Shown in pieces: positions 4,282 through 57,708 of a DNA stretch of 64,000 bases. The stretch is from Curtobacterium herbarum. GTDB lineage: Bacteria; Actinomycetota; Actinomycetes; Actinomycetales; Microbacteriaceae. A model generated the notes under the pieces. It searched no databases and had not been told where the DNA came from. It saw only the letters and a program-made list of their open reading frames with translations. The stretch spans positions 124,001 through 188,000 of the forward strand of contig NZ_JAFBBT010000001.1 in NCBI RefSeq assembly GCF_016907335.1, in the 5' to 3' direction. Position numbers and translations under genes: made by a program. Every line of letters starts with the position of its first letter. The first letter of the stretch is position 1.

Positions 4282-5190
4282 TCAGTCGACCTGGTCGACC
4301 GACTCCGGCGACCGCACGGCGGCCCGTTGTTCGGCCAGCTCGGTGGCGGCCCACGTACCGAGGAGCGACAGGGACCGCTCGGACTCCGACCCGGCGTCGG
4401 CGCCGTAGGTGAACACCGTCAGCCCGGGGTCGGCGACCAGGTCGAGCGCCTCGAACGTCAGCTCGAGCTCCCCGACGATCGGGTGGTGCAGGTGCTTGCG
4501 GCCCGAACGGTGCACGTGCACGTCGTGCTCGGCCCACCAGGTGCGGAACTCCTCGCTCTTCGCCGAGAGCTCGCTCACCAGGGTCATCAGGCCGGGCTCG
4601 CACGGGTTCGAGGCCGCCGTGGTGCGGAGGACGGCCACGGCGTCGCGGGCGGTCTGCTCCCAGCGGGGGAAGAAGTCGCGGGCGGCGGGGTCGAGGAACG
4701 CGAACCGTGCCGTGTTCACCGGGCGTCCGGCACCGGCGAACACCGGGGCGTAGAGCGCGTGGCCGAGGGTGTTCGCGGCGACGATGTCGAGCCGTTCGTT
4801 GCGCACCCACGCCGGGGCGCCGGTGATCGCGTCGAGCAGGCGCTGTACCGCGGGCCGCACCGACGTCGGCACCGGACGGTGGGTGGTCTTCACCCCTGCG
4901 TTCGCCAGGTGTGCGAGGTCCGCCAGGTGCGCGCGCTCCGCCTCGTCCAGCTGCAGGGCGTTGGCCAGGCCGTCGAGGACGCCCTCCGAGACGCCCTTGA
5001 GGGTGCCGCGTTCGAGTCGCGTGTAGTAGTCGACGCTGACGCCGGCGAGCATCGCGACCTCGTGCCGACGGAGTCCGGGGACGCGCCGGGTACCGCCGCC
5101 GAACGACGGCATGCCGGCCTGCTCCGGGGTGAGCCGGGCTCGGCGGCTGGACAGGAAGTCGCGGATCTCGTTGCGGACGTCGATACCCAT
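4282..5190 (-). CDS. XRE-family regulator with MmyB-like ligand-binding domain
   Basis: 302-residue cytosolic transcription factor. Residues ~5-75 form an XRE helix-turn-helix, with the recognition region in RRVPGLRRHEVAMLAGVSVD followed by YYTRLERG. The rest is a PAS-like MmyB ligand-binding domain that starts near PAWVRNERLDIVAANTLGHAL and includes NTARFAFLDPAARDFFPRW, the family hallmark. Fatty-acid-like ligands have been proposed for this family from structure. Such regulators usually control an adjacent oxidoreductase; the nearest candidate is the methyltransferase-like gene downstream on the same strand. Confidence 0.9.
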   Translation of the reverse strand: MGIDVRNEIRDFLSSRRARLTPEQAGMPSFGGGTRRVPGLRRHEVAMLAGVSVDYYTRLERGTLKGVSEGVLDGLANALQLDEAERAHLADLAHLANAGVKTTHRPVPTSVRPAVQRLLDAITGAPAWVRNERLDIVAANTLGHALYAPVFAGAGRPVNTARFAFLDPAARDFFPRWEQTARDAVAVLRTTAASNPCEPGLMTLVSELSAKSEEFRTWWAEHDVHVHRSGRKHLHHPIVGELELTFEALDLVADPGLTVFTYGADAGSESERSLSLLGTWAATELAEQRAAVRSPESVDQVD

Positions 5191-28610: not shown

Positions 28611-28652
28611 GGACGGGAGGCGCGGTGCCAGCTGGCACGGTGCCTCCCGTCC
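28611..28652. terminator. 42-nt palindromic terminator, fourth copy
   Basis: GGACGGGAGGC arms with one G-G mismatch and one wobble pair, 29 nt after the XylH-like stop. Confidence 0.75.
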
Positions 28653-28695
28653 GTCGGTCCCAGCGTCCGTCGGTTCCCGCGTCCGTCGGTTCCAC
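28648..28695. repeat. 16-bp tandem repeat, three copies plus a decayed fourth
   Basis: Units CGTCCGTCGGTTCCxx repeat at a 16-bp period, starting inside the end of the palindromic terminator. The first base of the repeat is the CCGTCC of the terminator arm, which suggests the repeat grew from it by slippage. Confidence 0.75.
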
Positions 28696-28735
28696 AGTCG
28701 GCCGGTCCCTCCGCCCGCTGGCACCTCGACGCCGG

Positions 28736-49833: not shown

Positions 49834-50688
49834 ATGGATCAGCACCACGCCGACGGCCGCCCACCCACGGTCGGCCGCCCACCCGCGATCGGCGGGGTCG
49901 AGCGCGAGCGCGTCGACCGGACCCTCGGCGACGTCGACCTCACCCGCTGGCGCACCCGTGCCGGCCGGACGATCGCCGACTCGTGGGCTGCCCTCGGACG
50001 CCGCTTTGGAGCGCTGCCGCTGCTGCTCGTCACCCTGCTCGTCGGGATCGGCATCGCCGCGGTCGCGACCTGGGTGGCGTCCGAGGTCTACGACGCGGTC
50101 CGGGAGTCCGACGACGTCGCCGTGCTCGACCGGCCGGTGCTGGACTGGATGATCGCGCACCGCACCCCGGCGCTCGACCAGGGCGTCACGTGGTGGACCG
50201 ACATCGCCGGCACCATCGGGATGCCGATCGTCGCCGTGCTGTTCCTGGTCGGCCTGACGATCCAGCGTCGGGCGTGGACACCGCTCGTGCTCCTCGTCGC
50301 CGCGAGTGCCGGCTCCCTCGCCATGACGATCGCGGGCAAGGACCTCATCGGCCGCGCCCGGCCGCCGCTGTCCGACGCCGTCCCGCCGTTCGAGCACTCG
50401 CCGTCGTTCCCGTCCGGGCACACCCTCAACGCGACCGTCGTCGTCGGCACCATCGTGTACCTGCTGCTCCTCCGGCAGAGCCGCGTCGTGACCCGGGTCT
50501 GGACGATCGTCGTCGGGACGCTGTTCGTGCTGTCCGTCGGGGCCTCGCGGGTGTTCCTCGGACACCACTGGACCACCGATGTGCTGGCGGCGTGGGCGCT
50601 CGGGCTGGCGTGGCTGGCGCTCGTCGTCACGGCGCACCGGCTGTACCTGACGGCGCTGCACCGGGGGGCGGAGCCGACTCCGTCGTGA
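49834..50688 (+). CDS. PAP2-family membrane phosphatase
   Basis: 284 residues, five to six helices after an 85-residue cytoplasmic start. The acid-phosphatase triad is KDLIGRARPP (K169...RP), SPSFPSGHTLN and SRVFLGHHWTTDVL. It dephosphorylates lipids such as phosphatidate or undecaprenyl pyrophosphate on the outer face of the membrane. CAGGGT six nt before the ATG fits a leaderless start. The last 13 codons and stop are duplicated 200 bp downstream, around a structured segment. Confidence 0.92.
   Translation: MDQHHADGRPPTVGRPPAIGGVERERVDRTLGDVDLTRWRTRAGRTIADSWAALGRRFGALPLLLVTLLVGIGIAAVATWVASEVYDAVRESDDVAVLDRPVLDWMIAHRTPALDQGVTWWTDIAGTIGMPIVAVLFLVGLTIQRRAWTPLVLLVAASAGSLAMTIAGKDLIGRARPPLSDAVPPFEHSPSFPSGHTLNATVVVGTIVYLLLLRQSRVVTRVWTIVVGTLFVLSVGASRVFLGHHWTTDVLAAWALGLAWLALVVTAHRLYLTALHRGAEPTPS
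50647..50688 (+). repeat. 42-bp direct repeat, copy within PAP2 gene end
   Basis: Runs from CTGACGGCGCTGCACC to the TGA of the PAP2 gene (six consecutive G), and is repeated almost exactly at 50886. Confidence 0.85.
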
Positions 50689-50690
50689 GG

Positions 50691-50780
50691 ACTTGAACGA
50701 CACGATCGTGAGTTCAAGTTCCCGGCGATCGACTTGAACCCCGGTGCCTCTGGTTCAAGTAACTCGCTCGAAACTTGAAC
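50691..50780. repeat. Phased array of five alternating ACTTGAAC sites
   Basis: ACTTGAAC at 50691, 50732 and 50773 alternates with its inverse GTTCAAGT at 50712 and 50753. The spacing is 21, 20, 21, 20 bp, two turns of B-DNA, so all sites face the same side. Neighbouring sites also form hairpins with 12-13 nt loops. It lies just after the PAP2 stop, inside the duplicated flanks, and 192 bp before the kinase ATG. Confidence 0.85.
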
Positions 50781-50885: not shown

Positions 50886-50926
50886 CTGACGGCGCTGCAC
50901 CGGGGGCGGAGCCGACTCCGTCGTGA
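50886..50926 (+). repeat. 41-bp direct repeat, intergenic copy
   Basis: Second copy of the PAP2 3' end, one G shorter in the G run, so it no longer reads in frame. Confidence 0.85.
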
Positions 50927-50971: not shown

Positions 50972-52585
50972 ATGGAAGAACGGCTGATCGGCGGCAGGTA
51001 CCGGGTGACCGGGACCCTCGGACACGGCGGGATGGCGTCGGTGTACCGCGCTGTCGACGAGCAACTCGGACGCGAGGTCGCGGTCAAGCTCTTCCGCATC
51101 GGACCCGTCGACCACGGGGAGCGTGCGCGTGCCGAGGCCGAGATCCACGTGCTCGCCGGCCTTCGCAGCCCGAACCTCGTGACCCTGTTCGACGCCGCCC
51201 TCGACACCGACGACGGCGACTCGTTCCTCGTCATGGAGCTCGTCCCCGGCAGCGACCTCGCCACCCGTCTGCGCGAGGGTCCGCTCGACCCGACGACCAC
51301 CGCCCGAGTGGGTGCGCAGGTCGCCGAGGGGCTGGCCGCCGTGCACGCGCAGGGCATCGTGCACCGGGACGTGAAGCCCGCGAACGTCCTCCTCGAGCAG
51401 GACGGCGAGCACGTCAAGCTCGCCGACTTCGGCATCGCCCTGCTCCGCGACGCCGCCCGGGTCACCGGCACCGGCACCGTCATCGGCACGGCCGCGTACC
51501 TGGCACCGGAGCAGGTCCTCGGTCAGGTCGTCACGGGCAAGGCGGACGTGTACGCGCTGGGTCTGATGCTCCTCGAGGCCCTGACCGGCAAGCAGGCGTT
51601 CCCGGGCAGCGCGGTCGAGGCCGCCACCGCCCGACTCGCCCGAGCGCCGGAGATCGACCAGCACCTGCCGACGGCATGGCGCACGCTGCTCCACGTCATG
51701 ACGGCGCAGCACCCGGAGGACCGTCCGTCCGCCGCCGAGGCCGCGGCGCGTCTCCGCGCACTCGGTCGGGACGAGGTCGCGCCCGCCACGCAGCTCCTGC
51801 CGGGAGGCCCGGGGGCAGTCACCCGCGCCGCCGCCGGTGCCGGGGTGGCCGGTGCAGCCGCCGCCGCCGCTGGCGCCGACCCCGCGGACGCGGCGACGCG
51901 CGCGATGCCGGTGAGTGGGGCCTCCCGTCCGGACGACGCCACCCGGCGCCTGCCCACCCAGTCGCAACCGTCGCGGAGTGCGGACGACGACGTCGCGACC
52001 ACGATCCTCGGCACACCGGGGGCCGCAGGTCCGGGTGCCGGCGGCGCCGGCGGTGGGCGCTCGGGCGGCACCGCCGCGCCGGCCCGGCCACTCGGTACGG
52101 ACCCCGATGAGCCCCGGCGGAAGCGCTGGGTGGTGCCGTTGATCGTCCTGGCGGTCCTCGTGGTCGCCGGCATCGTCGTGGCGGCCCTCGCGTTCAACCG
52201 CGACGGCAGCAGCACGCCGAGCCCGACCGAGTCGACGCAACAGACCGCGCCGACCGACGACCAGCCGAGCTCGGAGCCGTCCGACGAGGCGAGCGAGCCC
52301 GCACAGCAGCCGAGCCAGCCGGCCGAGCAGCAGCCGTCCGAGCCGGCGCAGGAGCAGCCGTCCGAGGCGCCCTCGCAGCCGTCCGACGAGTCGAGCCAGC
52401 CCACCGAACAGGTGCCGACGACCGGGCCGGAGCCGGGCAACGACACGACGCTGCCCGTGCAGGACCCGCTCGACACCGGGGTCGACACGACCTCGAAGCA
52501 GGGCCCGGGTGCCGGCGGTGCTGGCGGGGGGACCGGTCCCGGCAGGTCCGGCGAAGCTCCGGGGCAGAACAAACCCGCAGGCTGA
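50972..52585 (+). CDS. Serine/threonine protein kinase (transmembrane, PASTA-less)
   Basis: 537 residues. The kinase domain is at ~8-265, with the Gly loop GHGGMASVY, AVKLFRI (ATP Lys), HRDVKPANVLL (catalytic Asp133), ADFGIAL (D152) and GTAAYLAPEQV. A disordered Ala/Gly-rich linker (~275-380) follows, then one membrane helix at ~387-409 and an extracellular tail rich in Pro, Ser, Gln and Glu (QQPSQPAEQQPSEPAQEQPS type repeats). There is no PASTA domain, so it senses something other than muropeptides. Three small acidic genes follow on the same strand. Confidence 0.92.
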   Translation: MEERLIGGRYRVTGTLGHGGMASVYRAVDEQLGREVAVKLFRIGPVDHGERARAEAEIHVLAGLRSPNLVTLFDAALDTDDGDSFLVMELVPGSDLATRLREGPLDPTTTARVGAQVAEGLAAVHAQGIVHRDVKPANVLLEQDGEHVKLADFGIALLRDAARVTGTGTVIGTAAYLAPEQVLGQVVTGKADVYALGLMLLEALTGKQAFPGSAVEAATARLARAPEIDQHLPTAWRTLLHVMTAQHPEDRPSAAEAAARLRALGRDEVAPATQLLPGGPGAVTRAAAGAGVAGAAAAAAGADPADAATRAMPVSGASRPDDATRRLPTQSQPSRSADDDVATTILGTPGAAGPGAGGAGGGRSGGTAAPARPLGTDPDEPRRKRWVVPLIVLAVLVVAGIVVAALAFNRDGSSTPSPTESTQQTAPTDDQPSSEPSDEASEPAQQPSQPAEQQPSEPAQEQPSEAPSQPSDESSQPTEQVPTTGPEPGNDTTLPVQDPLDTGVDTTSKQGPGAGGAGGGTGPGRSGEAPGQNKPAG

Positions 52586-54417: not shown

Positions 54418-54486
54418 CCCGCCAGCGCAGGGCGGACTGCCCCGCCAGCGCAGGATGGACTGCCCCGCCAGCGCGCGGTGGACTGC
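54418..54486. repeat. Three-copy 23-bp tandem repeat
   Basis: Three adjacent 23-bp units CCCGCCAGCGCAGGxxGGACTGC (third: CCCGCCAGCGCGCGGTGGACTGC). Read on the other strand they contain CCTGCGCTGGCGGGGCAGTCC, close to the third unit of the 42203 repeat. Confidence 0.85.
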
Positions 54487-54501
54487 CCGGCGGCAGCCCG
54501 T

Positions 54502-56964: not shown

Positions 56965-57012
56965 GTCAGTACCCCGGCGCGTCAGTACCCCGGCGCGTCA
57001 GTACTTCGGCGC
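56965..57012. repeat. Three-copy 16-bp tandem repeat carrying stops
   Basis: GTCAGTACCCCGGCGC twice, then GTCAGTACTTCGGCGC. On the minus strand each unit contains a TGA; because 16 is not a multiple of three, the three stops (56966, 56982, 56998) fall in three different frames at the end of the PH-like gene. Confidence 0.85.
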
Positions 57013-57708
57013 GTCCGGCCCCGGAGCCTCGGGCGTGGGCCACGGCTCCGCCGGTCCCCGTCGCGCCGGCCAGCCCTGTGCCGGTGCCGGCGCGCCGGCT
57101 GCCGGCCAGTTCGGCGCCGGGGTGGCTGCGCCCGCGTAGGCGATCCACGCCCACGGCGCGCGCTGGGCCAGCCAGGCCTCGAGGTCGGGGTACCCGATCG
57201 CGATCGACACCGTGTCGAACAGCACGGCACCGTTCGGGTCCCGCGCCTGGATCCCGCCGTACGGGCCGGTCCAGGGGCGGATCGACGCGATGGTGGTGTG
57301 GTGGACCTCGCGTTCGACCCGGAAGCCCTTCCGCACGACCAGACGGTCCGGCAGCGCGTCGATCCGCGTCCGGGCCAGGGCTCCGGCGAGCAGGACGAAC
57401 GCGACCCCGGCGAGCAGGGCGACGGCGCCCGCGATGCCCATCGGCAGCGCGTCCGTCTCGTCCGAGGTACCGGCCGCACCGAGCAGCAGCACACCGCCGA
57501 CCACGATCACCAGGATGCCGATCGTGCGCAGGATCACACGCTGCCACCGTCTCGGCCGCACGGTGAACAGTGCGTCCGCTGCTGCTCCGGCGAGCACACG
57601 CTGGTGCTTCCGCTTCCGGTCCCCCCGACGGATGGCCGACGTCACGACCACCGGGACGACGGCGGCGAGGACGAAGGCGATGGTCACGGAGGTGATCGTG
57701 GTCCCCAT
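56998..57708 (-). CDS. PH-domain-like membrane protein
   Basis: 236 residues. N-terminal helix TSVTIAFVLAAVVPVVVTSAI, two more helices (VILRTIGILVIVVGGVLLL, GIAGAVALLAGVAFVLLAG), then a bacterial PH-like domain (ALPDRLVVRKGFRVEREVHH followed by TTIASIRPWTGPYGGIQARD). An Ala/Pro-rich tail follows, ending APGPDAPKY inside the 16-bp repeat. Similar bPH_2 membrane proteins are common and of unknown role. Frameshifting in the repeat would still end translation within a few codons. Confidence 0.7.
   Translation of the reverse strand: MGTTITSVTIAFVLAAVVPVVVTSAIRRGDRKRKHQRVLAGAAADALFTVRPRRWQRVILRTIGILVIVVGGVLLLGAAGTSDETDALPMGIAGAVALLAGVAFVLLAGALARTRIDALPDRLVVRKGFRVEREVHHTTIASIRPWTGPYGGIQARDPNGAVLFDTVSIAIGYPDLEAWLAQRAPWAWIAYAGAATPAPNWPAAGAPAPAQGWPARRGPAEPWPTPEAPGPDAPKY

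Follow-up and report, generated by a model that had tools for sequence, protein, structure and literature searches.

A helically phased repeat array in Curtobacterium herbarum as the probable orphaned operator of a SoFic-type fic gene

In a 64,000-nucleotide stretch of the Curtobacterium herbarum chromosome, referred to here as the window, an array of five alternating half-sites lies directly in front of the remnant of a fic gene. We consider it very probable that this array is the promoter and operator of a self-repressing SoFic-type fic gene and that it was orphaned by an in-frame deletion. The array, its register to the start codon, the fic remnant, the empty sites of related genomes and the inverted repeats before many related genes can be read directly from the sequences compared. 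From these we infer protein binding, cooperativity, repression and the position of the promoter. The sequence-only reading of this stretch recognised the array but overlooked fic, the remnant of which is directly behind it and gives the array its interpretation as the promoter and operator of that gene.

According to the mechanism proposed here, the array would be the operator of a SoFic-type AMP-transferase with a C-terminal winged helix, belonging to a family known as toxic anti-phage enzymes. Fic dimers would bind paired ACTTGAA half-sites, with 7-bp arms and a 15-bp spacer, and a row of dimers on one face of the DNA would extend over the promoter as far as the start codon, thereby repressing their own gene. 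On this view, about 1.1 kb was deleted in frame in C. salicis and in the genome of the window, which fused the start codon with codon 365 and spared the operator, the start codon itself and the last 34 codons.

Table 1. Coordinates of the array and of neighbouring features in the window
Feature	Position	Strand	Basis or remark
PAP2-type phosphatase gene, left neighbour	49834..50688	+	matches below curated cut-offs
Direct repeat copy 1 (PAP2 last codons and stop)	50647..50688	+	repeat search
Site 1, ACTTGAA	50691..50697	+	offset -91 from GTG 50782
Site 2, TTCAAGT	50713..50719	-	offset -69 from GTG 50782
Site 3, ACTTGAA	50732..50738	+	offset -50 from GTG 50782
Site 4, TTCAAGT	50754..50760	-	offset -28 from GTG 50782
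GAAACT at the -10-like position of intact Curtobacterium fic	50770..50775	+	by eye; overlaps site 5
Site 5, ACTTGAA	50773..50779	+	offset -9; ends 2 nt before GTG 50782
fic remnant, 35 aa	50782..50889	+	GTG joined in frame to last 34 codons and stop
Direct repeat copy 2, after fic remnant	50886..50926	+	relatives' empty sites have one copy
PknB-like Ser/Thr kinase gene, right neighbour	50972..52585	+	profile matches

The array and its spacing

A sequence scan of the window found five exact copies of ACTTGAAC on alternating strands between 50691 and 50780, their starts 21, 20, 21 and 20 bp apart, in agreement with the sequence-only reading as to starts, strands and intervals. At up to one mismatch the window holds 18 matches to this word, and the only exact ones are the five array copies. 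The core common to the array and to its relatives comprises seven bases, ACTTGAA/TTCAAGT, and core starts are 22, 19, 22 and 19 bp apart, so that same-orientation copies recur every 41 bp and neighbouring copies are about two helical turns from each other. This 41-bp period, either as 22+19 or as 21+20, was found in 10 of the 11 arrays measured, the window included, the array of Stackebrandtia being 22+18.

The earlier view that chance is an unlikely source of the array was borne out by 200 order-2 Markov simulations of the window, with any 8-mer counted. The best alternating and evenly spaced run was two in 195 simulated windows and three in the other five, and never exceeded three, against five in the real window. 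An array phased at about two turns and occupied, perhaps cooperatively, by a DNA-binding protein at several of its sites is still the best reading of this arrangement, as was first proposed. The search of related genomes for the paired words, which had been suggested as a check, located the pair ACTTGAAC-N11..14-GTTCAAGT at a single place in the 3.5-Mb genome of the window and in 1 of 398 sampled family genomes, namely its own, in a sample that was without C. salicis, whose sites mostly differ at the eighth base. The 7-base cores at up to two mismatches occur at two further places in the same genome (L166 and L167). The former, a 29-bp palindrome flanked by a LacI-type regulator and a gene for a sugar-binding protein, was considered and looks unrelated.

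Other repeats are present in the window. A 23-bp tandem repeat in three copies lies between two divergent gene ends (54418-54488), a 16-bp tandem repeat, GTCAGTACCCCGGCGC, is present three times at 56965-57015, and a 16-bp unit, CGTCCGTCGGTCCCAG, is repeated about four times beside an inverted repeat at 28648-28709.

The insert and the fic remnant

The neighbours of the array are a polA-like gene, a PAP2 gene and a Ser/Thr kinase gene, on a chromosome that is one contig. When 351 bp of the locus were compared with 59 genomes (relatives and the own genome), full-length matches were confined to the own genome and C. salicis (G024), and the best matches in other congeners start at the second direct-repeat copy. 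In nine aligned relatives (G007, G034, G035, G019, G015, G022, G012, G010 and G030) PAP2 and the kinase gene follow each other with no array in between, from which it follows that about 239 bp are inserted in the window and in C. salicis. The insert comprises the array, a short ORF and, in a second copy, the last 41-42 bp of PAP2. At the repeat positions that differ between the window and C. salicis, both copies within one species are mostly alike, and this agreement suggests that they have been homogenised by gene conversion. The right joint of the insert has CTGA in common with the PAP2 tail; acquisition through homology at the left end and microhomology at the right could account for the duplicated PAP2 tail. 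A plasmid origin of the insert was rejected, as DNA searches of plasmids gave zero matches at E 0.01.

Several functions suggested earlier for the array do not fit this setting. A role in replication, partition or silencing is not supported, the neighbours being polA-like, PAP2 and kinase genes with no adjoining rep or par gene, and neither is control of the downstream kinase gene, which is present without the array in the nine aligned relatives. It had also been proposed that absence of the array from orthologous regions would speak against it. The array is absent there, and since it arrived with the insert this counts against a conserved role at the locus.

All 34 fic codons of the remnant encode the residues found at 365-398 of P0008, a metagenomic Fic of 398 aa that is intact and was compared as protein. 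The deletion is thus in frame, with its left edge at the end of the start codon or no more than a few bases away, and its joint is common to the window and C. salicis. A structure model of P0008 built from 32 sequences has a mean pLDDT of 90.2 (a four-sequence version was poor outside the C-terminus, with a mean of 45), and in it residues 326-390 form a winged helix with helices at 326-336, 342-349 and 353-365 and wing strands at 370-374 and 377-381. By topology, helix 353-365 is likely to be the recognition helix. As the remnant starts at residue 365 it keeps the wing and last helix only, and the likely recognition helix is missing from it. With that helix gone the array would be an orphan operator, without a cognate protein found in its own genome, where other Fic matches are about 30% identical. 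Within the window no intact SoFic gene was found, only the start codon and the last 34 codons.

The assignment of the lost gene to the SoFic type is based on its intact relatives, which match the PADLOC SoFic model with E values of 4e-89 and 7e-84 and fall below the cut-off of the stricter NCBIfam SoFic model. The SoFic model is matched, and the Fic motif present, in L069, an intact relative from another genus, and in P0008. In Pfam, the proteins of L069 and of a second such relative, L081, have Fic_N and Fic above the cut-off and SoFic-like_C and MarR_2 below it. The best structure matches of the P0008 model are 7cb8 and the SoFic structures 3zcn/3eqx, followed by CccR (7xux) and CbFic2 (8cil).

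Related arrays and inverted repeats before fic genes

In relatives a Fic-HTH gene is found directly downstream of the array, at the position where the window has the remnant alone. In genome G006 the interval from PAP2 to the kinase gene holds an intact fic preceded by related sites. When its Fic was compared with 66 genus genomes, five of them, counting the query genome itself, had an intact orthologue at 75% identity or more. As judged by eye, the intact gene occupies the same place as the window insert in G006, G002 and G033; in G473 and G030 it lies one gene further upstream, with the polA-like gene and PAP2 on either side. Both G006 and G002 have five sites at the offsets listed in Table 1, two of them exact and three degenerate (sites 2, 4 and 5 in G006). 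A single site pair with a 14-bp spacer was found in G033 and a partly degenerate series in both G473 and G030. A pattern of three sites at fixed spacing, with up to three mismatches, was detected in 6 of the 66 genus genomes (G000, G024, G030, G006, G002 and G473) and every time at the fic locus; the reversed control of the pattern, at the same number of mismatches, was found in none of the 66.

A -10-like word (TAAAAT, TAGAAT or TAAACT) was seen by eye to end 6 nt before the start codon in homologues L112 to L116 and L146. This is the layout of leaderless actinobacterial promoters. The word is absent from that position in L069, L081 and L105, and at least L069 and L081 have Shine-Dalgarno-like bases (both by eye), so that the promoter layout of these three differs.

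Homologues at E 1e-60 or better are present in 8 of 299 sampled family genomes and 9 of 396 phylum genomes. We examined 21 homologues (L104 to L116, L142 to L148 and L081) for inverted repeats whose arms are 7 bp or longer, with a spacer of 11-17; those left aside (L117 to L141, L149 and L150) were mostly weak or were matches starting inside the protein. Such repeats occur within 130 bp before the match start in 14 of the 21, as against 3 downstream and 1 inside, and 200 shuffles gave a mean count of 0.87 and a maximum of 5, although the homologues are not independent because some are close relatives (L112 and L113). The remaining seven have no such repeat upstream. Where the arms have changed they have changed jointly on both sides, to ACCTGAA/TTCAGGT in L146 and L148 and to ACTTGGA/TCCAAGT in L147. 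On plasmids, 180 records have a SoFic-like match, and 15 loci were taken, 13 of which were tested (L182 and L184 were dropped for want of a usable annotated start). Repeats of at least 7 bp with a spacer of 0-30 precede 8 of these 13 genes, and five of the eight were matched by fewer than 5 of 200 shuffles, but 4 of 13 gene-internal control stretches were also positive, and the wider operator claim is thus weaker than the actinobacterial one. Neighbours of the plasmid SoFic genes include Hachiman HamA, DNA methyltransferases and a restriction subunit S, neighbourhoods that agree with defence islands.

Outside the genus, the three-site pattern at two mismatches was found among 396 order genomes in the own genome and G1216 only, with no fic within 3 kb around the G1216 site. 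A scan for the exact three-site array yielded 55 stretches in GTDB r220 contigs, nine of which are from Actinobacteria by title, and 16 in viral contigs; sequence was inspected for 34 of these 71. Among the nine actinobacterial loci, an intact fic is directly downstream of the array in two other genera (L069 and L081), a fic lacking its 5' end follows the array closely in three (L047, L061 and L052, the last from C. salicis WW7), and no fic was detected beside the array by tblastn in four (L041, L045, L080 and L086), so that an intact gene is missing from seven. Sequence to the left of the array reaches 810 bases in L041, 292 in L045 and 40 in L086; L096, the array of which is identical to that of L086, reaches about 1 kb further left without a fic. 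The genomes of L041, L045, L080 and L052 have distant Fic proteins only (E 1e-25 or weaker), those of L047 and L061 have truncated Fic only, plus one at 1.5e-13 in the latter, and that of L086 has one Fic protein of 35% identity. In L047, L061 and the window the 5' loss of fic begins directly behind the array, a clustering at the array edge that may be biased since the three truncations were found through intact arrays.

Some of the other scan matches, for example in Desulforamulus, Treponema and marine phages, look like other repeats or coding sequence. Desulforamulus putei (L034, L040, L056, L060 and others) has many palindromic repeats with TTCAAGT/ACTTGAA ends and a GGGGACGGTTCTTG-like core, and this palindrome looks like an unrelated dispersed repeat. 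In Glaciibacter superstes (L080, 3799-5139) the orphan array is located, by eye, between Phd-like and HigB/HigA-like toxin-antitoxin ORFs. A GC-rich, actinophage-like phage contig (L095, IMGVR_UViG_3300001918_000009) has three exact sites with SoFic-type spacing (19, 22) at 4410-4457, between a terminase-like ORF (by eye) and a portal gene. Relatives of the portal gene, none reaching 60% identity, occur in Streptomyces, Microbacterium, Gordonia and one Curtobacterium phage. The array of this contig could be a phage-borne SoFic operator or a decoy. For the two-site pattern in viral contigs, two of the 80 loci listed have a GC content of at least 0.55, neither with an in-phase third site.

Alternative readings, known systems and biological meaning

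Between the window and C. salicis the cores have 0 changes at 35 positions and the rest of the array has 12 at 57 (one-sided Fisher 0.0019; 0.013 when stratified by AT/GC), and the intact pair G006/G002 gives the same contrast, 0 of 35 against 11 of 54. The remnant ORF has 2, 0 and 4 changes at codon positions 1, 2 and 3. The contrast at the cores is a weak hint that the orphan array may still be used, as it compares two sequences and the locus could have been transferred between lineages. That core sites seem conserved after the loss of fic would suit a reading in which an unrelated regulator recognises the array and fic is one of its targets rather than the repressor. The four of nine actinobacterial arrays without an adjoining fic, together with the array that precedes a phage portal gene, make another reader of the motif possible. 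We nevertheless regard this as quite improbable, given that within the genus the array is found at the fic locus only and that the arms before other Fic homologues vary by lineage, as is to be expected if each protein reads its own operator.

It is very doubtful that the array acts as RNA, in the form of consecutive hairpins in a 5' leader, as the sequence-only reading had also suggested. The strand does fold better than its shuffles (z -2.9), but in Curtobacterium the -10-like words, 6 nt ahead of the start codon, point to leaderless transcripts and put the array upstream of the presumed transcript start, two Rfam matches are both below the gathering score, and in G006 the hairpins would form poorly because sites 2, 4 and 5 are degenerate. 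Least credible of all is the view in which the insert represents a small MITE-like or cassette-like mobile element and the array its recombinase site. The insert is flanked by direct repeats of 41-42 bp, as such an element might be; however these are the end of the host PAP2 gene, by eye no such repeat follows intact fic where it occupies this position, the array pair has no second copy in its own genome and the register of the array to fic is kept in relatives.

For autoregulation of a Fic protein, or SoFic operators, the sole precedent that we recognised in the open-licence literature is CccR, a Fic-HTH toxin of Yersinia pseudotuberculosis that, in the text of the paper available to us, represses its own promoter via inverted repeats and needs to be a dimer to do so (PMC9755527). 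The two are alike in the Fic domain with a C-terminal HTH and in the inverted repeats of their own promoter. The CccR operator is however one pair with 10-bp arms and N26 (PMC9755527), in contrast to phased 7-bp half-sites with N15/N12, and CccR is a T6SS effector of only distant sequence kinship (E 1.4e-15 for the profile). With arms and spacer so unlike, the array would work like the CccR operator without having the same operator design. CbFic2 of Coxiella burnetii is likewise a Fic enzyme with a DNA-binding winged helix, but in the available text it bound random DNA and has no known operator, and that paper remarks that DNA binding by SoFic had not been shown (PMC10628234). The UmuDAb operator of Acinetobacter, which was among the matches listed, has arms containing ACTTGAA and TTCAAGT; with its shorter spacing, essential GTnAC core and LexA-like protein it was rejected as a coincidence of words (PMC11332147). 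Nothing was found in the open-licence literature that links Curtobacterium with the Fic family.

The intact relatives match the SoFic anti-phage family as defined in PADLOC, while in the window the protein is deleted. The part of the published SoFic work available to us describes inhibition of SoFic by a small protein, AS1, and by the C-terminal domain, with no operator described there, and it names leaky expression of SoFic as a problem and its activation upon phage infection as elusive (PMC12249575). Were phased operators recognised by the winged helix of their own product to prove general among SoFic genes, autorepression of transcription would supply a simple layer of control that has been missing, and the array could serve as a marker of SoFic loci that genomes have lost. 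It is conceivable, if unlikely, that orphan SoFic operator arrays form a functional class of their own, which outlives the gene, keeps its sites while the spacers drift and acts as a decoy binding SoFic, or its winged helix, from other genomes, of host as well as phage. Should orphan arrays truly be under selection, then some other reader must exist.
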